DNA of 64,000 nt, taken from positions 304,501 through 368,500 of the forward strand of contig JAKLGU010000001.1 of assembly GCA_022710485.1 (NCBI GenBank), read 5' to 3'. Positions 8,817 through 22,798 of the stretch are shown here, piece by piece. The position numbers and the translations under genes are program-made. Source of the stretch: Gemmatimonadota bacterium. GTDB taxonomy: Bacteria; Gemmatimonadota; Gemmatimonadetes; Gemmatimonadales; GWC2-71-9. The notes below the pieces were generated by a model, which saw only the letters and a list, made by a program, of their open reading frames with translations, was not told where the DNA came from and did no database searches. How positions within the stretch are numbered: the stretch's first letter is position 1; every line of letters begins with the position of its first letter.

Positions 8817-9986
8817 ATGCTGACGCTACTGCGGAACGTCGAGATCTACGCCCCCGAGCCTCGCGACGCCCGCCACATCCTCGTGGGCGGCGGCAAGGTG
8901 CTCTGGATGGGCCGCGATCTCCCCTCACTTCCGGCCTCGCTCGGTGTGGTCGAGCGGGACTTCGGGGGGCGGCGCGTCATCCCTGGGCTCGTGGACGGCC
9001 ACGTCCACCTGACAGGGGGCGGCGGCGAGTCGGGACCGGAGAGCCGTGTGCCGCCGGTGCCCCTCACGCGCTTCACGCGCGGCGGGGTGACGACGGTGGT
9101 GGGCGTGCTGGGCACCGACGACGTCACCCGCACCACCGGCTCGCTCGTCGCGGCGGCACGAGGGCTCGTGGCGGAGGGGCTGAGCGCCTGGTGCCACACC
9201 GGCGGCTACCACCTGCCGCCGACCACGCTGACAGGCAGCGTCCGCGGCGACATCGTGCACGTGGACCGCATCATCGGCGTGGGCGAGGTGGCGCTGAGCG
9301 ACCACCGCTCGAGCCAGCCGACGCTCGATGAACTCCTGCGCCTCGCCGGCGAAACGCACGTGGCGGGGCTGATGACCGGCAAGGCCGGCATCCTGCACCT
9401 CCACCTTGGAGACGGACCGCGCGGCCTGCAGCTCGTCAACGCCGCCCTCGACGCCAGCGAAATTCCTCCCCGCGTATTCAACCCTACCCACGTCAACCGC
9501 CGCCGCGCCCTCTTCGAAGAGGCGATGCAACTCGCCGACCGGGGGGCCTGGATCGACCTCACGGCGTTTCCGGTCGGGCCGGACGAGGACGCGTGGTCGG
9601 CCGAGGACGCCCTGCTCCGCTATCTCGGCGCCGGGCTCCCGGCGGAGCGGATTACCGTCAGCTCCGACGGCGGGGGGTGCCTTCCGGTGTTCGACGCCGA
9701 CGGCCGCGTGACAGACATGGACGTCGGAAGCCCTGGCGCGCTGGCGGCGGCCCTCCGTGGCCTGCTCGACCGCGGCCAGCCGCTCGAGCGAGTGTTGCCG
9801 GCCTTCACCTCCAATCCCGCCGACCTGCTTCGCCTCCCGGACAAGGGTCGGATCGAGGCCGGCGGCGATGCGGACCTCGTGGTGCTGAACCCCAACGGAG
9901 ACCTGACCGACGTGATGGCACTGGGACGCTGGCACATGGTGGACGGGCGGGCGGTGGTGCGCGGAACTTTCGAGGAACTGCAGTGA
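8817..9986 (+). CDS. iadA: Isoaspartyl (beta-aspartyl) dipeptidase
   Basis: Metal-dependent amidohydrolase that cleaves beta-Asp-Xaa dipeptides. It has 389 residues, like E. coli IadA. Metal ligands are visible: HVH near residues 62-64, VGEVALSDHRSSQP in the middle, HLHLGDG, NPTHVNR and the catalytic Asp in SSDGGG. The bridging position that is a carbamylated Lys in E. coli appears to be Glu here (GEVA), as I recall in several other bacterial relatives. First gene of a coupled operon: its stop overlaps the cyanophycinase GTG by 4 nt. In this context its likely substrate is beta-Asp-Arg released by cyanophycinase. Confidence 0.93.
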   Translation: MLTLLRNVEIYAPEPRDARHILVGGGKVLWMGRDLPSLPASLGVVERDFGGRRVIPGLVDGHVHLTGGGGESGPESRVPPVPLTRFTRGGVTTVVGVLGTDDVTRTTGSLVAAARGLVAEGLSAWCHTGGYHLPPTTLTGSVRGDIVHVDRIIGVGEVALSDHRSSQPTLDELLRLAGETHVAGLMTGKAGILHLHLGDGPRGLQLVNAALDASEIPPRVFNPTHVNRRRALFEEAMQLADRGAWIDLTAFPVGPDEDAWSAEDALLRYLGAGLPAERITVSSDGGGCLPVFDADGRVTDMDVGSPGALAAALRGLLDRGQPLERVLPAFTSNPADLLRLPDKGRIEAGGDADLVVLNPNGDLTDVMALGRWHMVDGRAVVRGTFEELQ

Positions 9987-10825
9987 GCCCGGCCCGGCCG
10001 CCCGAGGGCGCGGAGCGCGGGGCGATCATCCCCGTCGGCGGCGCCGAGGAGAAGATGAGCGACGCCCGGATTCTCCGGCGGTTCGTCGACATCGCCGGGG
10101 GGAAGGATGCGCGGATCGCCGTGATCGCCACCGCCTCGCAGCTCGCGGACACCGGCGACCGCTACGAATCGCTGTTCACCGAGCTTGGCGCCGGACGGGT
10201 CCGGGCGCTGCCCTTCGAGTCGCGCGGCGACTGCGACCGCCCCGAGCTGCTGGAAAAGCTGGTCAAGGCCACCGGCATCTTCCTGACCGGCGGCAACCAG
10301 CTGCGCCTGGCCACCACGCTCGGCGGGACCGACGTGGCGCGCACGATCCGCACGCTCAACGCCGCGGGGGTGCCGGTGGCGGGAACCTCCGCGGGCGCCG
10401 CCTTCCTGTCGGAGCACATGATCGCGAACGGGGAGGACGGCGCCGTTCCCCGTGCCAACATCGTGACGCTCGCCCCGGGCCTCGGACTGACGAACCGCGT
10501 CGTGATCGACCAGCACTTCCGCCAGCGCGACCGGCTCGGCCGGCTGCTCACCGCCCTGGCCTACAACCCGTTCGCGATCGGGATCGGCCTCGACGAGGAC
10601 ACCGCCGCCTTCCTGGGGCCGGACGAGACGCTGGAGGTCGTCGGCAGCGGCGGCATCACGATCGTGGACTGCGCCAACGTGGAGTATTCCTCGATGGACC
10701 AGGTCGGCGACCACGAGCCGGTCTGCCTGATCGGGCTCCGCCTGCACATCCTCACCGCCGGCGCGACCTTCAACCTGCACACCCGCGTGGCCACGGCGCC
10801 GAACGCCGCCGCCACCAAGCCCTGA
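9983..10825 (+). CDS. cphB: Cyanophycinase (S51 serine peptidase)
   Basis: Exopeptidase that degrades cyanophycin to beta-Asp-Arg dipeptides. The nucleophile motif is GTSAGAAF, with FLTGGNQLRL and the VVIDQHFRQRDRLGRL segment typical of cyanophycinases. It has 280 residues including a short N-terminal tail; intracellular, no signal peptide. The start is GTG at 9983-9985, overlapping the iadA stop (GTGA). cphA follows 23 bp downstream behind a GGAGG site. Pairing with a dipeptidase and a synthetase makes the assignment firm. Confidence 0.95.
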   Translation: MSPARPPEGAERGAIIPVGGAEEKMSDARILRRFVDIAGGKDARIAVIATASQLADTGDRYESLFTELGAGRVRALPFESRGDCDRPELLEKLVKATGIFLTGGNQLRLATTLGGTDVARTIRTLNAAGVPVAGTSAGAAFLSEHMIANGEDGAVPRANIVTLAPGLGLTNRVVIDQHFRQRDRLGRLLTALAYNPFAIGIGLDEDTAAFLGPDETLEVVGSGGITIVDCANVEYSSMDQVGDHEPVCLIGLRLHILTAGATFNLHTRVATAPNAAATKP

Positions 10826-10848: not shown

Positions 10849-13638
10849 ATGCGCATCGTCGAAACCTCGGTCTACCTCGGGCCGAGCCTGTACGCCCATT
10901 TCCCCGTCATCCGGTTCGACCTGGACCTGGGGCCCGTCGAGGCGTGGCCGACCAGCCGGCTCGGACCCCAGTTCAACGACGCGCTGTTCGCGGCCCTTCC
11001 CGGCCTGCTGGAGCACGGCTGCTCGTACGGCGACGCGGGGGGGTTCCGGCGGCGGGTCCTCGAGGACGAGGGGACCTGGCTGGGGCACGTCCTCGAGCAT
11101 GTGGCCATCGAGCTCCAGAACGTAGCGGGCGCCAGCGTCACCTTCGGCAAGACCCGCTCCACCGGCGTGCCCGGGCGCTACCACGTGGTGTTCGAGTACG
11201 AGCAGGAGGAGGTCGGCCTCGAGGCGGGCCGCCTGGCCCTGACCCTGCTCCACTCCCTCCTGCCCGAGGAACTGCGCCCGGAGCGGAGCGTCCCCGCCGA
11301 CTTCGATTTCGCGGAGGAGCGAGACGCCTTCATCCGGTTCGCGCAGCGCCGCGCCCTCGGCCCCAGCACCGGGTCGCTGGTCCACGCCGCCGAGGCCCGC
11401 GACATCCCCTGGATGCGACTGAACGACGCCAGCCTGATCCAGTTCGGGTGGGGGCGCTATCAGCAGCGGGTCCAGGCCACCATCACCAGCCACACCGCCC
11501 ACATCGCCGTCGAGATCGCCTCCGACAAGGAGGAGACGAACAAGATCCTCTCGCGGCTCGGCCTCCCAGTCCCAAAGCAACGGCTGGTCCAGCGCGAGGA
11601 CGAGGCGATCGACGCCGCCCGGCGCATCGGCCATCCGGTGGTGGTCAAGCCGTACAACGCCAATCACGGGCGCGGTGTCGCCATCAACCTGCGCGACGAC
11701 GAGTCGGTGGCGATGGCGTTCCGGCAGGCGCAGGCCATCAGCCGCAGCGTCATCGTGGAGACGTTCATCGAGGGTCACGACCACCGCATGCTGGTCATCG
11801 ACGGCGAGCTGGTGGCGGTGGCGAAGCGTGTGCCCGGGCACGTGGTGGGCGACGGAACGCACACGATCGAGGAGTTGGTGGCGATGGTCAACAGCGATCC
11901 GCGCCGCGGCATCGGGCACGAGAAGGTGCTGACCCGGATCGAGTTCGACTCTCAGGCGGACCGGCTGCTGGCCCAGAAGAACTACACCCGGCAGACGGTG
12001 CCCGCGGCGGGCGAGGCGGTGTACCTCCGGTCCACCGGCAACCTCTCCACCGGCGGCACCTCGGTCGACGTGACCGACTCCGTGCATCCCGACAACCGCG
12101 AAATGGCCATCCGCACCGTCGAGGCCATCGGGCTCGACGTCGGCGGCGTGGACTTCCTGACGCCGGACATCACGCAGTCGTACCGGGAAAGCGGCGGCGG
12201 CGCCATCTGCGAGGTGAACGCGGCGCCCGGGTTCCGGATGCACATGGCGCCGAGCGAGGGGAAGCCGCGCGACGTGGCGGGGCCGGTGCTCGACATGCTC
12301 TTCCCGCCAGGGACGCCGTCGCGCATCCCGATCGCGGCCATCACCGGCACCAACGGCAAGACCACGACCTCCCGCATGCTCGCGCACATCCACAAGCTGG
12401 CGGGACGTACCGTCGGGCTCACCACCACCGACGGCGTCTACATCGACGGCAACCGGACCGTCGAGGGCGACATGACCGGCCCGATCGCCGCGCGCATGGT
12501 GCTCGGCGACCCGCAGGTGGACGTGGCGGTGCTCGAGACGGCGCGCGGCGGCCTCTTGCGCGCCGGCATGGGCTTCCGCCACTGCGACGTGGCGGCCTGC
12601 CTCAACGTGAAATCCGACCACCTCGGCCTCCGCGGCGTGGAGACGCTCGAGGAACTGGCCAAGGTCAAGCGGATCCCGATCGAGGTGGCGCGGGACACCG
12701 CCGTGCTCAACGCCGACGACCCGCTCTGCCTCGCGATGGCCGACTACACCGAGGCGAAGGTCATCTGCTACGTGACGCTGAACCCCGAACACCAGCTCGT
12801 GCGCGCGCACATCCGCGCCGGCGGACGGGCGCTCGCGCTCGAGGCGGGCGTCAACGGGCAGATGATCACCATCTACGACAAGGGCGGGCACATCCCCCTG
12901 CTCTGGACCCACCTGATCCCCGCCACGCTCGAAGGCCGCGCCATGCACAACGTGCAGAACGCGATGTTCGCGGCGGCGATGGCGTTCAGCATGGGGGTCA
13001 AGCTCGAGGACATCCGCCACGGGCTCCGCACGTTCGACACCAGCTTCTTCCAGGCCCCGGGCCGGATGAACGTGTTCGACGAGCACGGGTTCAAGGTGAT
13101 CCTCGACTACGGCCACAACCCCGACGCGGTCGAGGTGATGTGCCAGCTCACCGACCGGATCGAGGTCAAGGGGCGGAAGCTGGTGGTGCTGGCGGGGCCC
13201 GGCGACCGGCGGGACGAAGACCTGCGCGAGATCGCCCAGCGAGCGGCGGGACGGTTCGCGCATTACTTCTGCCGGCGCGACGACTCGCTCCGGGGGCGCA
13301 CCGACGAGGAGGTGCCCCGGATCCTGAGGGAGGCGCTCCTGGCGTCGGGGGTGCCCGACAAGCAGATCACGGTCATCGCCGATGAACAGCGAGCGGTGGA
13401 CGCCGCGCTCCGCATGGCGCGCGCAGGAGACCTCCTCCTGGTCTTCGGCGATTCGATCGCGCGGACCTGGAAGCAGATCATTCATTTCCGCCCCGACGGG
13501 CGCGGTGCGGCGGCCGCCGCCAGCCCGCCCGCCCGCGTGGAAGTCACCGCACCAGGGCCCGGCGCGGAGCTGCCGGACTCAGAGCAGCTCATCCGTGACG
13601 AGCGCGGCGTGCGGCTGGCCCGGGAGGCCGACGACTGA
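10849..13638 (+). CDS. cphA: Cyanophycin synthetase
   Basis: Non-ribosomal, primer-dependent synthesis of multi-L-arginyl-poly-L-aspartate using ATP. It has 929 residues with three parts: an N-terminal domain (about 1-160, starts MRIVETSVYLGP), an ATP-grasp domain (about 220-480, with RLGLPVPKQRLV and GGAICEVNAAPGFRMH), and a Mur-ligase-like domain with P-loop TGTNGKTTTSR near residue 500, ETARGGLLRAGMGF and LDYGHNPDA. All landmark motifs of a full-length CphA1 are present. GGAGG lies only 3 nt before the ATG. The stop overlaps the next start as TGATG. Confidence 0.96.
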   Translation: MRIVETSVYLGPSLYAHFPVIRFDLDLGPVEAWPTSRLGPQFNDALFAALPGLLEHGCSYGDAGGFRRRVLEDEGTWLGHVLEHVAIELQNVAGASVTFGKTRSTGVPGRYHVVFEYEQEEVGLEAGRLALTLLHSLLPEELRPERSVPADFDFAEERDAFIRFAQRRALGPSTGSLVHAAEARDIPWMRLNDASLIQFGWGRYQQRVQATITSHTAHIAVEIASDKEETNKILSRLGLPVPKQRLVQREDEAIDAARRIGHPVVVKPYNANHGRGVAINLRDDESVAMAFRQAQAISRSVIVETFIEGHDHRMLVIDGELVAVAKRVPGHVVGDGTHTIEELVAMVNSDPRRGIGHEKVLTRIEFDSQADRLLAQKNYTRQTVPAAGEAVYLRSTGNLSTGGTSVDVTDSVHPDNREMAIRTVEAIGLDVGGVDFLTPDITQSYRESGGGAICEVNAAPGFRMHMAPSEGKPRDVAGPVLDMLFPPGTPSRIPIAAITGTNGKTTTSRMLAHIHKLAGRTVGLTTTDGVYIDGNRTVEGDMTGPIAARMVLGDPQVDVAVLETARGGLLRAGMGFRHCDVAACLNVKSDHLGLRGVETLEELAKVKRIPIEVARDTAVLNADDPLCLAMADYTEAKVICYVTLNPEHQLVRAHIRAGGRALALEAGVNGQMITIYDKGGHIPLLWTHLIPATLEGRAMHNVQNAMFAAAMAFSMGVKLEDIRHGLRTFDTSFFQAPGRMNVFDEHGFKVILDYGHNPDAVEVMCQLTDRIEVKGRKLVVLAGPGDRRDEDLREIAQRAAGRFAHYFCRRDDSLRGRTDEEVPRILREALLASGVPDKQITVIADEQRAVDAALRMARAGDLLLVFGDSIARTWKQIIHFRPDGRGAAAAASPPARVEVTAPGPGAELPDSEQLIRDERGVRLAREADD

Positions 13639-15365
13639 TGGTCCTGCCTGACACCGTGCGCGACTCTCGGCGGCTCACCGGGCCGAACCTGGTGACCGAC
13701 CGGCCCGGGGCGGTGCTGGAGGTCGAGCTCGCCGACGAGTCGGCGGACGCGTTGGTCGGCTACTGGCACGAGGAGGTGCGCCGCGCGCTTGACGCCGTGG
13801 GCTGGGGCGCCGAATCGCGGGCGGTCCGTCGCTACCCGGGTGGCGCCAGCCTCGCGTTCACGGCCCCCATCGACGCCTTGTACGCCGCCACCGAAGTGAA
13901 CGAATGGGCGTGGACGGCCGCCTCCGCGCGGCTTCACGGCGAGCACATCGACCGCGACGAGGCCTACGCACGGCTGACGGGGCTGGTCGCAGCGGAGCGA
14001 CGCCCCGCCCTTCTGGCGCTGGAGGAGGCAGCCCGCGCCCGGGATGTCCGGTTCCTCTGGGACGACGACTGCGTGACCGTCGGAACCGGGACCGGCTCGC
14101 TCACCTGGCCGATGGATGCCCTTCCCGACCCTGACGCCGTGGACTGGGCCACGGTTCACGACATTCCGGTGGCGCTCGTGACAGGCAGCAACGGCAAGAC
14201 GACCGTGACCCGCCTGGTGAGCGGGATGATCACGGCGGCCGGGCTGGCCGGAGGACACACCTCCACCGACGGCATCAAGGTGGGCGCGGAGACGCTCGAC
14301 GCTGGAGACTTTTCGGGGCCCGGCGGAGCGCGCCGGCTGCTCCGCGACCGCCGGGTCGAGATGGCGGTGCTCGAGACCGCGCGGGGCGGGCTGCTTCGGC
14401 GCGGCCTGGCCGTGGACCGTGCCGACACCGCGGTCATCACCAACATCGCGGAGGATCACCTCGGCGAATCGGCGGTGTACACGATCGCCGACCTCGCCGA
14501 GGCCAAGCTGGTGGTCGCGCACGCGCTCGGAGGCTCGCGGCCGCTCGTCCTCAACGCCGACGACCCGGCGCTCGTGCAGGCAGCCCGCGGCGTCTCCTGC
14601 CCGGTCGCATGGTATTCCCTCGACGCGAAGCATCCCGCACTGGCCGCCGCGGCCGCGGCAGGCGGTTTGACCGCGACCCTCGTCGGCGACCAGGTCAAGC
14701 TCGGGAAGGGCGCCGCCTCGCGCAGCGTCACTTCGGTGAGCAGGATTCCTATCACGGTCGGGGGGGCGGCGCGCTACAACGTGTCGAACGCCCTGGCCGC
14801 CGCGCTGGTCGGAACGATTCTCGGGCTCGACGACACGGCCATCGCCAAGGGGCTCGCCGCGCTGACCAACAGTCCGTCCGGGAATCTCGGCCGGCTCAAC
14901 GCCTTCGAGTTCGGCTCGGTCCGCGCCTTCGTGGACTTTGCCCATAACCCGCACGGGCTGACCGCCCTGATGGAGATGGCACGCGCCCTTCCGGCCGCGC
15001 GGCGCCTCGTGGTGATCGGCCAGGCCGGCGACCGTGACGACCACGCCATCCGCGAGCTGGCGCGTACCGCCTGGCTCGGGGCGCCCGACCGCGTGCTGGT
15101 GAAGGAGATGCCCGACTACCTGCGCGGCCGCCCCGCCGGCGAGGTGACCGGGATGCTCCTGCAGGAACTCCGGCAGCTTGGCGCCCGCGAGGACCAGCTC
15201 GACCTGGCCGTCGGCGAGCTGCAGGCCGCGCGGCAGGCGCTCGCCTGGGCGCGGGACGGGGACCTGCTGCTGCTCACGGTGCACGCGGACCGCGATACCG
15301 TCCTCCGCTACCTGCAGCGCCTCGCCGCCGAGGGCTGGACCGCCGGGAAGCCACTCCCGGCATGA
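13638..15365 (+). CDS. CphA-like protein with Mur-ligase module but no ATP-grasp domain
   Basis: 575 residues. The region from about residue 175 parallels the C-terminal half of CphA: P-loop TGSNGKTTVTR, STDGI, VLETARGGLLRRG, NIAEDHLGE, VDFAHNPHG, VIGQAGDRDD. The first 170 residues contain LTGPNLVTDRPGAVLEVEL, reminiscent of the CphA N-terminal domain, then an unfamiliar segment. The ATP-grasp domain is absent. Known family members suggest ATP-dependent ligation of an amino acid to a carboxylate; the substrate is unknown. Translationally coupled to cphA (TGATG) and to the amidase (ATGA), so it probably acts on the same polymer or a modified version of it. Confidence 0.85.
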   Translation: MVLPDTVRDSRRLTGPNLVTDRPGAVLEVELADESADALVGYWHEEVRRALDAVGWGAESRAVRRYPGGASLAFTAPIDALYAATEVNEWAWTAASARLHGEHIDRDEAYARLTGLVAAERRPALLALEEAARARDVRFLWDDDCVTVGTGTGSLTWPMDALPDPDAVDWATVHDIPVALVTGSNGKTTVTRLVSGMITAAGLAGGHTSTDGIKVGAETLDAGDFSGPGGARRLLRDRRVEMAVLETARGGLLRRGLAVDRADTAVITNIAEDHLGESAVYTIADLAEAKLVVAHALGGSRPLVLNADDPALVQAARGVSCPVAWYSLDAKHPALAAAAAAGGLTATLVGDQVKLGKGAASRSVTSVSRIPITVGGAARYNVSNALAAALVGTILGLDDTAIAKGLAALTNSPSGNLGRLNAFEFGSVRAFVDFAHNPHGLTALMEMARALPAARRLVVIGQAGDRDDHAIRELARTAWLGAPDRVLVKEMPDYLRGRPAGEVTGMLLQELRQLGAREDQLDLAVGELQAARQALAWARDGDLLLLTVHADRDTVLRYLQRLAAEGWTAGKPLPA

Positions 15366-16822
15366 GCGCGGACCTCGGCTCGGGCTTCGCCACCGCGGGC
15401 GAACTCGCCGAGGCGATCCGCGATCGCCAAATCAGCGCGGTCGAGGCGCACGACCTGCACGCCGACCGCATCGCGCGATTCAACCCTCCCCTCAACGCCA
15501 TCGTCATCCCGAACCCGGACGCGCGCGCCCGCGCGATCGCCGCCGATGAGGCGCTCGCCCGCGGCGAGCTGTGGGGCCCGCTCCACGGCGTGCCGGTGAC
15601 GATCAAGGACATCTTCGATGTGAGGGGGCTGCGGAACACCGCCGGCTACCCGCCGGCCAAGGACAACGTGTCCACCACCGATGCGACCGTCACGGCACGC
15701 ATGCAGGGGGCCGGCGCGGTGGTCCTCGGAAAGACGAACGTCCCCCTCCTCTGCTACGACTGGCAGTGCGACAGCCCGATTTTCGGCCGCAGCAACAATC
15801 CGTGGGATGTCAGCCGCACGCCGGGGGGAAGCACCGGCGGGGGCGCGGCCGCGGTGGCGGCCGGGCTGTCGCCGCTCGAGGTCGGCAGCGACGCTGCCGG
15901 ATCGATCCGGATCCCGAGTCATTTCTGCGGAGTGTACGGGCTGAAGCCGACGGAGGATCGCGTGTCGGGGGCCGGGCACGGCGAGCTCCCCGACCGGCCG
16001 CCCGGCGGGCTGCGCCACCTCGTGAGCTTCGGCCCGCTCGCCCGCTCCGTGGCAGACCTGCGCCTGGCGCTCGCGCTCCTCGAGGGGCCCGACCCGCGTC
16101 GGGTCGAAGTCCCGCCCGTGCCGCCGGTCGCAAGGCGACCCGACCTGCCCCGGCCCGAGTCGATGCGGATCGCCTGGATGGACACCCTTCCCCACTGCCC
16201 GACCTCCGCGGAGACGGCAGCGGTCGTTCTCGCGGCCGCACAGGCGCTCGAGACGGCGGGGTGCCGCGTCGAGCGGGTGGCCCCGCTGCATTTCGAGATC
16301 GAGGAAGCGCTCGCGACGTGGGGGGAGATCAACGGCTTCGAAATGGGAGCGATGACCCCGGCGCCGATCAGGCTGCTGATCAGGAACACCACGTTCCTCG
16401 GACTGGGCCGGACCAGGTGGACGCGCGGGCTGCGGGGCGGGTTCGGCATGAACGGGCCCCGCTACATCAAGGCGCTCACGACGCGAGAGCGGTTGATAGC
16501 GGAACTCGAGGCGTTCCTCAACGGCTTCGACGCCTGGCTGCTCCCGGTGGCCGCCGTGCCCGCCTTCCGGCACATGCGTTCGGGGAAGTCGCTCGACGTG
16601 GACGGCACATCGGTGCCGTATACCACGGCGGTCGGCTCCTACGCCGCGCCGTTCAACCTCACCGGGAGCCCGGCGGTGTCGCTGCCGGCCGGTCAGTCGC
16701 CGGAGGGGCTGCCGATCGGCGTACAGTTGGTGGGGCGGCGCTGGGACGACGACCACCTGCTGGCGGTCGCTGAGCGGGTGGCGGAGATCCTGGGACCCTT
16801 CCGGAGGCCCCCGGGTTACTGA
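15362..16822 (+). CDS. Amidase signature family hydrolase
   Basis: 486-residue amidase of the Ser-cisSer-Lys class. Visible elements: the catalytic Lys in HGVPVTIKD (near 81), the GGSTGGGAAAVAAG loop (near 155-168) and the nucleophile region EVGSDAAGSIRIPS (near 175-188). The family hydrolyses many carboxamides, so the substrate is open. As last gene of the iadA-cphB-cphA-Mur ligase operon (ATG overlaps the previous stop as ATGA) it may trim or recycle a product of that pathway. GatA is unlikely because no GatB or GatC is adjacent. The 3' end overlaps the convergent ABC-F gene by 7 bp. Confidence 0.88.
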   Translation: MSADLGSGFATAGELAEAIRDRQISAVEAHDLHADRIARFNPPLNAIVIPNPDARARAIAADEALARGELWGPLHGVPVTIKDIFDVRGLRNTAGYPPAKDNVSTTDATVTARMQGAGAVVLGKTNVPLLCYDWQCDSPIFGRSNNPWDVSRTPGGSTGGGAAAVAAGLSPLEVGSDAAGSIRIPSHFCGVYGLKPTEDRVSGAGHGELPDRPPGGLRHLVSFGPLARSVADLRLALALLEGPDPRRVEVPPVPPVARRPDLPRPESMRIAWMDTLPHCPTSAETAAVVLAAAQALETAGCRVERVAPLHFEIEEALATWGEINGFEMGAMTPAPIRLLIRNTTFLGLGRTRWTRGLRGGFGMNGPRYIKALTTRERLIAELEAFLNGFDAWLLPVAAVPAFRHMRSGKSLDVDGTSVPYTTAVGSYAAPFNLTGSPAVSLPAGQSPEGLPIGVQLVGRRWDDDHLLAVAERVAEILGPFRRPPGY

Positions 16823-20838: not shown

Positions 20839-21156
20839 TCAGATGCAGCCCTTGGGTTTCGGGATCCCGCCGATCTTGGCGGCCAGCTTCGCGGGGCCCT
20901 TCGGGAAGAGCTTGTACAACTCCTTGATGTCCACCCCGGATTCCTTGCCAAGCGAGCGGATCGAGGGGGCGGCACCGGTCGTCAGGTACCGATCCCGCAT
21001 GTAACGGACGACCATCCAGTGCCGCTCCGTCAGTTCCGGAATCCCGTTCTCGCGTGCGATCTCGGCGGCCAGGGATTCGTTCCACTGTTCGGGGTTCTGC
21101 AGGAAGCCCTCGGCGTCCACATCGAGGGCGGTGTCGAGCATCGTGAGCGTGGGCAT
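20839..21156 (-). CDS. TusE/DsrC-family sulfur relay protein
   Basis: 105 residues, close to the family norm. Shows VDAEGFLQNPEQWNESLA, the RHWMVVRYMRDRYL helix and the C-terminal PKPKGCI with the penultimate Cys (C104) that carries the persulfide. The second Cys about ten residues earlier, present in dissimilatory DsrC, is missing, so it resembles TusE or other single-Cys DsrC homologues. No dsrAB lies in this window. An AGGAG site precedes the ATG. It belongs to the arsR-sqr-tusE-dsrE cluster. Confidence 0.9.
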   Translation of the reverse strand: MPTLTMLDTALDVDAEGFLQNPEQWNESLAAEIARENGIPELTERHWMVVRYMRDRYLTTGAAPSIRSLGKESGVDIKELYKLFPKGPAKLAAKIGGIPKPKGCI

Positions 21157-21176: not shown

Positions 21177-22454
21177 TCAGCCGGCGGTCGGAGCGGACGC
21201 GGAACGGGTCGGCCGCTTGCCGCGCATGGTCATCCTGGGGGACACGAGCGGAATGTCGTGCCCCGGGAGCAGCATGTGCCAGTACACCCAGCGGAACGCG
21301 AGCTTGCCGAGGTGGTTCAGCCGCGACTCCTTGAGCAGCCGCAGCGGACCCACCACCGGCAGCGGGAAAGTGCCGCTGAGCGGTTCGGTCTCGTAGTTGA
21401 AGTCGATCAGCAATGCCTGGTGGAACCCCGTCTCGATGAAGCAGTTGCTGTGGCCGTCGAAATCAGGCTTCAACGGCTTGCCGACCAGGTACCGGGCGAC
21501 ATTCTCCTCCAGGAGCTCAGCTTGGAAGTGGGCCACCGACCCGGCCTTGGACGCGGGGAGGTTGGTCGCGTCACCGAGCGCGAAGATGTTCGGCTTGCAC
21601 TCCGCCTGGAGGGTGTGCGGATCGGTCAGGACGAACCCGAGGTCGTCGCCGAGACCCTTGGAGCGGCCGACGTACTCGGCGCCGCCGTGCAGGGGGACGG
21701 CCACGAGCAGGTCGAAGGGGAGCTCGCGCTCGTCGTAGGCGACGAGGCGTCCGTTGGCGGCGTCCACCGTGCCGGTGTTGAACTCCCGTTCGAGGCGGAT
21801 GTGCTTGTCCCGGAAGAGGTGCGCCAGTTCCTGGTTGCAGGTCGGCTTGGTGAAGGCGTCATCGAGGGGCGTGACGTAGGTGATGTCCACCTTGTCGCGG
21901 ATGCCACGTTTCGTGAAGTACCAGTCGGCCAGGAAGGCGAACTCGAGCGGAGCGACGGGGCACTTGATCGGCATGTCCACCACATTGATCACCAGGCGTC
22001 CGCCTTCGAAGGCGGCGAGTGCGTCCCGCAGCGCGGTGGCGCCCTCCAGCGTGTAGAAGTCGAACACCTTCGTGCGCCAGCCCTGCCCGGTCATCCCTTC
22101 CGTCTCCTCCGGGAGCACGCGGGTGCCGGTGGCGACGATCAGCACGTCGTGCGAAATCGTCCTTCCGTCCGAGAGCACCACCACGTCGCGGTCGGCCTCC
22201 ACCCGGTCGATCGGCTGTTGGATGTACTCGATGCCCGGGAGGAGTTGCTGGTCCCGCGGCCGGACTACCTGGTCGGGGGTGTAGATCCCGAAGGGCAGGA
22301 AGAGAAGCCCGGGCTGGTAGAGGTGCTCGTTGTCCTGGTCGATGAGCGTGATGGTGGTCGTGAAGGCCCGAAGCTCGCGGCTGAACCGGCGCGCCAGCCG
22401 GTTGGCGATGGTGGTGCCGGCGGTGCCGGCGCCGAGAATGGTGATGCGGGTCAT
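21177..22454 (-). CDS. sqr: Sulfide:quinone oxidoreductase-like FAD protein
   Basis: Flavoprotein predicted to oxidise sulfide and reduce quinone at the inner membrane face. 425 residues: N-terminal dinucleotide fold ITILGAGTAGTTIANRLA, ATG motif LIVATGTRVLP, FALGDATNLPASKAGS near the flavin. Cysteines at 165 (IKCPVAPLEF) and 338 (SNCFIETG) correspond to two of the three classical SQR cysteines. The third, expected near 125, is absent. The C-terminus (about 375-400) is amphipathic, suitable for membrane association. ATG at 22452-22454 overlaps the ArsR stop by 4 nt. Confidence 0.88.
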   Translation of the reverse strand: MTRITILGAGTAGTTIANRLARRFSRELRAFTTTITLIDQDNEHLYQPGLLFLPFGIYTPDQVVRPRDQQLLPGIEYIQQPIDRVEADRDVVVLSDGRTISHDVLIVATGTRVLPEETEGMTGQGWRTKVFDFYTLEGATALRDALAAFEGGRLVINVVDMPIKCPVAPLEFAFLADWYFTKRGIRDKVDITYVTPLDDAFTKPTCNQELAHLFRDKHIRLEREFNTGTVDAANGRLVAYDERELPFDLLVAVPLHGGAEYVGRSKGLGDDLGFVLTDPHTLQAECKPNIFALGDATNLPASKAGSVAHFQAELLEENVARYLVGKPLKPDFDGHSNCFIETGFHQALLIDFNYETEPLSGTFPLPVVGPLRLLKESRLNHLGKLAFRWVYWHMLLPGHDIPLVSPRMTMRGKRPTRSASAPTAG

Positions 22455-22798
22455 GCCGACGCCTCCCGGCCCGCGTCGGGCCGCGTGTTCGTCTGGTCGC
22501 ACTCGCGCACACAGGCGAGGATGTGGGTCACTCTCGGCTCCGTGATGCGGTATCGCATGAACGGGCCGTCGCGTCGGGCGGCCACCACGTTGCGGCCGCG
22601 CAGGATGCCGAGCTGCTCGGACACGGCGACCTGCGTGGCTCCGCTGAAGAGCTGGAGCTCGCTCACACTCGCCTCGCCTACGCGCTCCATGACGTCGAGC
22701 AACCGGAGCCGAAGCGGATGGCCGAGGCACTTGATCACGCCGGCGACGCGCTCAAGCACGTCGAGAGGGGTCGGATCGCAATTGACAGTGGTGGTCAC
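22451..22798 (-). CDS. ArsR-family transcriptional regulator
   Basis: 115-residue winged-helix regulator (IKCLGHPLRLRLLDVME, then VSELQLFSGATQVAVSEQLGILRGRNVV). Cysteines lie at 7, 24, 96 and 100. A pair spanning the helix near the N-terminus and the C-terminus recalls the persulfide-sensing BigR/SqrR type, but the exact positions cannot be verified here. Start GTG at 22796-22798. Its location directly upstream of and overlapping the SQR gene suggests autoregulation and sulfide- or persulfide-responsive control of the cluster. Confidence 0.88.
   Translation of the reverse strand: MTTTVNCDPTPLDVLERVAGVIKCLGHPLRLRLLDVMERVGEASVSELQLFSGATQVAVSEQLGILRGRNVVAARRDGPFMRYRITEPRVTHILACVRECDQTNTRPDAGREASA

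Follow-up and report, generated by a model that had tools for sequence, protein, structure and literature searches.

A putative ligase resembling cyanophycin synthetase without its ATP-grasp domain is the conserved partner of an Asp-terminated CphA clade

The window analysed is a 64,000-nucleotide stretch of contig JAKLGU010000001.1 from a Gemmatimonadota bacterium (GWC2-71-9), and it contains a run of five forward-strand genes whose ends overlap or nearly touch. The first, iadA (8817–9986, +), encodes an isoaspartyl dipeptidase (TIGR01975), which carries out the second degradation step, and is followed by the cyanophycinase gene cphB (9986–10825, +; Peptidase S51, TIGR02069), the true start of which probably lies ~50 bases inside the annotated frame. 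Next is cphA (10849–13638, +), coding for a complete cyanophycin synthetase with N, G and M domains that belongs to the MurX-associated CphA clade described below; its C-terminal extension (13483–13635, +) consists of a variable linker and a conserved tail (...LIRDERGVRLAREADD) with Asp as the last residue. The ATG of the fourth gene, murX (13638–15365, +), shares one base with the cphA stop codon. Its product, here named MurX, is a 575-residue putative ligase, CphA-derived and without ATP-grasp. The amidase gene that follows (15362–16822, +) has a 4-base overlap with the murX stop, was considered as a member of the system and was set aside, as among the loci examined it adjoins murX only in the window's own genus (L065, 73% identity); it is probably outside the MurX system. 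Further along the window, a DsrC-like protein is encoded leftwards (20839–21156, −; PF04358, E 9e-34) near a pyridine nucleotide-disulphide oxidoreductase (21177–22730, −), suggesting a role in sulfur metabolism.

The CphA of the window matches the Cyanophycin_syn N domain, RimK/ATP-grasp and both Mur domains in Pfam and scores 1135 bits, above the NCBIfam cyanophycin synthetase cut-off, so that the complete cphA reported beside murX in the original prediction is indeed present. MurX contains all three of the motifs listed there (TGSNGKTT, ETARGGLLRRG and HNPHG), and its Pfam matches are confined to Mur_ligase_M (PF08245, E 1.8e-22) and Mur_ligase_C (PF02875, 4e-10), both above the gathering score; Pfam finds no ATP-grasp family, as had been claimed. 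The best NCBIfam match of MurX covers the Mur portion of the CphA model (positions 477–850, E 6e-104), and at 348.7 bits it falls below the TIGR02068 equivalog cut-off of 850 bits. Against the MurE subfamily model MurX scores 98 bits (cut-off 257), with the match beginning at model position 85.

The N-terminal likeness to CphA that had also been proposed is real and is weak by sequence (hhalign E 0.002, residues 3–33), with a second colinear anchor to the start of the CphA G domain (E 0.04); it is settled by structural comparison. The AlphaFold model of MurX, built from an alignment of 16 natural homologues, has a pLDDT of 93 and a pTM of 0.92, and Foldseek superposes its N and M parts on the complete CphA1 chains 7lgj and 7wae with TM scores of 0.81–0.83 by query length over 880 columns. 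The alignment runs end to end, with N and M placed as in CphA1. Because it covers the whole target, with a gap where the G domain lies, MurX is, as modelled, a CphA from which the ATP-grasp (G) domain has been removed. The earlier description of the protein as the Mur half of CphA is therefore better replaced by N plus M with the G domain deleted: MurX comprises an N domain (residues ~1–105), what is left of the first part of the G domain (~106–165) and an M domain (~175–575). The N-domain peptidase motif Cx19HxxEH is absent from MurX residues 1–105, and the family alignment contains no conserved HxxEH in that region.

Ten ATP-, Mg- and catalysis-related positions were checked in 24 MurX proteins from several phyla, with roles taken from residues that bind ATP or Mg or are needed in the M domains of TeCphA1 and SuCphA1 (PMC9427784, PMC9262961). 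The equivalents of TeCphA1 N497, K499, T500, T522 (as T or S), E558, R731 and H748, those of SuCphA1 D585 and H586, and the lysine aligned with the carbamylated Lys of MurE are kept in 24/24. Loss of P-loop or metal residues in homologues, named in advance as grounds for abandoning the original prediction, was not seen in any homologue examined, and on these residues MurX is predicted to be a functional ligase. The amino acid donor site is different. By sequence alignment to one MurE, 23/23 partner CphAs and 25/32 other CphAs have Asp at the position corresponding to the Asp of the DNPR donor motif, and MurX has not retained it. At D868, the acidic lid residue, D or E is present in 23/23 and 26/32 of the same groups and His in 21 of the 24 MurX proteins, and the MurX donor loop has a one-residue insertion and a Tyr. 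Since the Arg-side motif and donor pocket of CphA are changed in MurX, its donor may be an amino acid other than Arg, and the altered pocket fits the earlier suggestion that a different amino acid is attached. R255 was considered as a diagnostic MurX residue and discarded, because Arg is found there in some CphAs also.

The MurX-associated CphA clade keeps all three CphA active sites, and C58, H80, E83 and H84, the Cys and HxxEH of the N-domain peptidase, are invariant in the partner CphAs. With these residues intact, the idea that MurX makes up for an inactive M or N domain of its partner is rejected. The N-domain peptidase motif is what makes CphA1 primer-independent, and the partner CphA retains it; MurX may still have a priming role, but a shortage of primers would not be the reason for it.

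The cphB–cphA–murX cluster is present in the window's class, Lysobacteraceae, Acidobacteriota, Planctomycetota, Myxococcota, Eisenbacteria and Alphaproteobacteria. A class-wide search found full-length MurX in more than 30 genomes, nearly always directly downstream of cphA and with cphB upstream, and 55 of 249 Lysobacteraceae genomes encode it. A scan of named genomes gave further examples in Acidobacteriota, Eisenbacteria, Planctomycetaceae, Lysobacter, Defluviimonas, Cysteiniphilum and Plesiocystis, and plasmids carry murX in Ruegeria, in Shinella and in a record labelled Roseateles, with the product named 'Mur ligase family protein' by PGAP. The pair is strongly conserved. Within the class, MurX is found in 34/36 genomes with the matching CphA clade (at least 67% identity), both exceptions having a cphA cut by a contig end, and is absent from ~25 genomes with only the other CphA clade (40–56% identity). 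Two class genomes have MurX without a detected cphA; in one (G267) the contig begins inside murX, and the other (G261) has fragmented frames. In Lysobacteraceae, cphA and MurX occur together in 54 genomes and each alone in one, at contig ends or as fragments. One genome (G026) has a MurX-clade CphA (L197:6490–9324) followed by 4.8 kb without MurX, and a MurX at the end of another contig; a further genome (G286) has a divergent CphA with neither the tail nor MurX. This class-wide and cross-phylum conservation, together with the intact active sites, rules out a pseudogene or local duplicate.

MurX forms one clade on trees (98/95), as does its CphA (100/100), and distances in the two proteins are correlated (Mantel r 0.75, p < 0.0005), although the cphB–cphA pair gives 0.69 and the correlation is hence not specific. 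MurX evolves faster than CphA, with a median identity of 44% compared with 69%.

The Asp-terminated tail of the partner CphAs, which the original prediction had missed, is new here and is the strongest clue to the role of MurX. MurX-associated CphAs end in a variable-length linker followed by a conserved '(R)DERGVRLARE..D' segment, typically LVRDERGVRLARESDD, and Asp is the last residue in all 74 non-redundant members with a readable end. Among 73 complete CphAs without MurX the tail motif is found in none, and one ends in Asp. The RGV-to-end spacing is usually 8 residues and ranges from 7 to 13, indicating that the terminal Asp itself is what is conserved. An origin of the Asp as a side effect of a ribosome-binding site or an overlapping start codon is rejected: its codon is GAC or GAT, the stop codons differ, the distance to the RRL motif of MurX varies from 17 to 290 bases with the murX start sometimes far off, and in G026 the tail ends in Asp although cphA and murX are on different contigs. 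A divergent CphA from another genome (G431; L201:4006–6879, −), 54% identical to that of Lysobacter, has a shortened tail core (LVRDKRGVRLRRG) without the terminal Asp, and MurX was not found in that genome. Since the trees give a single origin for the tail and one for MurX, their association rests on one shared origin; the link is one of strong conservation and perfect co-occurrence, with no repeated independent gain.

Several known proteins resemble MurX in part. CphA1 (PDB 7LGJ, 7WAE) has the same placement of N and M and the same ATP, Mg and catalytic residues, and murX, moreover, adjoins cphA and cphB; MurX differs in being without ATP-grasp and the N-domain Cx19HxxEH, has a different donor loop, and cannot extend the Asp backbone. 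CphA2 is likewise CphA-derived and has lost one of two synthetic activities; it is a cyanobacterial enzyme that polymerises beta-Asp-Arg dipeptides with a single active site (PMC10206079). MurX has instead lost ATP-grasp, in keeping with the contrast with CphA2 drawn at the outset, and does not come from cyanobacteria at any of the loci examined. Betaproteobacteria have a short CphA (~690–820 residues; L088, L101) upstream of CphA, also an incomplete copy in tandem with a complete one, but with the opposite loss: the Mur lid is missing, and N, ATP-grasp and part of Mcore are retained. MurE shares the Mur ligase fold and catalysis and ligates an amino acid to an acceptor carboxylate; MurX is without its UDP-binding (UDP-MurNAc) N-terminal domain, and the genome has its own MurE (L200). 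Also related are actinobacterial orphan-M proteins (L107:4044–6500, L111:7368–9224, L129:7536–9251 and L132:9720–11981, −), which lie beside cphA and have a CphA-type Mur without ATP-grasp. They fall together with MurX on the tree of M domains (100/98) and have the YLRGR and HAER motifs in common with it. They differ in their N-terminal region, in orientation to cphA, in the absence of a terminal Asp from the partner CphA and, in two of them, in C-terminal TPR repeats.

CphA paralogues with decayed ATP-grasp regions are present in Duganella and Deinococcus (L136:9217–11283, −; L205:3684–5765, in which the frame is also split; L206:4023–6197), where the G domain seems to have been lost separately. 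Beside cphA, members of the class that carry the other CphA clade encode a standalone CphA N domain (PF18921) plus a further 140–220 residues (L066:10372–11472; L067:7850–8722, −; L068:7830–8978, −; L072:7427–8500, −), possibly as a separate primer-making peptidase.

The open-access literature, with subscription papers on non-cyanobacterial cphA outside its scope, yielded no description of a G-less CphA partner or of an Asp tail, nor a function for the arrangement, as the original prediction had supposed. The genome paper for Lysobacter capsici AZ78 describes a two-gene cluster of cphA and cphB (PMC4742617), so that the third gene, murX, seems to have been overlooked.

In CphA1, a chain with an unmodified Asp at its end is bound by the M site, between the N domain and Mcore (PMC9427784), and cyanophycin grows at its C-terminus, with the M sites acting on the C-terminal Asp (PMC9427784, PMC9262961). 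MurX would descend from a cyanophycin synthetase that lost ATP-grasp, and would have become the regular partner of one CphA clade, retaining N and M, the two domains that hold an Asp-ended chain in CphA1. The partner CphA would offer such an end on itself, by way of a long flexible linker and a conserved tail. Because MurX keeps N and M and its partner presents an Asp-ended flexible chain, the tail could bring MurX to CphA either as a docking handle or as an acceptor, and MurX would then ligate an amino acid to an Asp-terminated chain, that of the tail or of the growing polymer. We favour, with moderate confidence, the reading that MurX is an active ATP-dependent ligase, coupled through the tail to one CphA clade and acting on an Asp-terminated chain; from the tail and the retained domains we infer both the contact between tail and MurX and the nature of the acceptor. 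Against this reading, the actinobacterial orphan-M proteins, which are related to MurX, are paired with CphAs lacking a terminal Asp, the single shared origin of tail and MurX limits the weight of their association, MurX evolves faster than CphA, and the read-through model described below predicts no docking of the tail.

The tail could have one of two parts in this scheme. If it serves for docking only, MurX might put a different amino acid on cyanophycin side chains, giving a mixed polymer. The donor residues kept in CphA and changed in MurX, namely the MurE-DNPR-aligned Asp and D868, favour this, as do the insertion and Tyr in the donor loop; we regard it as a tentative possibility, as the donor mapping is a sequence alignment to one MurE and plain docking would not need an invariant last tail residue. 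A specific form of the favoured reading, with the tail as acceptor, has MurX modify the tail Asp and CphA extend the polymer from its own C-terminus, in the manner of glycogenin, the protein primer for glycogen. The C-terminal growth of cyanophycin, the retention of the N–M cleft in MurX and a tail that is always Asp-ended, with variable spacing and a long linker, are consistent with this. The partner CphAs nevertheless keep the Cys and HxxEH of the primer-making peptidase, which should make a protein primer needless, and an AlphaFold model of a natural read-through (Lysobacter CphA tail, the stop as Gly, and MurX) gave no docking, with a tail pLDDT of 32–44; this is a weak objection, since the alignment is shallow and the carboxylate is not free in that construct. 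Tail-primed synthesis is thus unlikely, and its full consequence, that MurX loads the tail Asp, the polymer is built from the CphA C-terminus and chains are covalently anchored to the enzyme, slightly more so.

Two further explanations do without a new ligation. MurX could be a structural or regulatory subunit, a pseudo-enzyme that binds cyanophycin or CphA and tunes activity. Mur-like proteins that are not ligases exist (the plastid RNA polymerase component PAP11 is among the matches), and the sequence of MurX evolves faster than that of CphA; the retention of all the checked ATP, Mg and catalytic residues in all MurX proteins is not expected of a pseudo-enzyme, and we consider this role doubtful. 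That MurX is a redundant or decaying CphA duplicate performing the same Arg ligation is improbable. It has the fold and catalytic residues of CphA, and there are separate G-domain losses near cphA elsewhere, in Duganella and Deinococcus, but a single deep clade retained with its CphA across several phyla, with intact frames, an invariant active site and an altered donor loop, argues against redundancy.

Cyanophycin is a bacterial nitrogen-storage polymer and a sought-after biopolymer, the synthesis of which is thought to need one enzyme. The conserved MurX–CphA pair and the tail suggest an undescribed second ligation step in this synthesis. Conservation of a second ligase across Lysobacter, Ruegeria, Shinella and numerous uncultured bacteria would mean an unrecognised polymer composition, a new way of starting or anchoring chains, or a new regulated complex.
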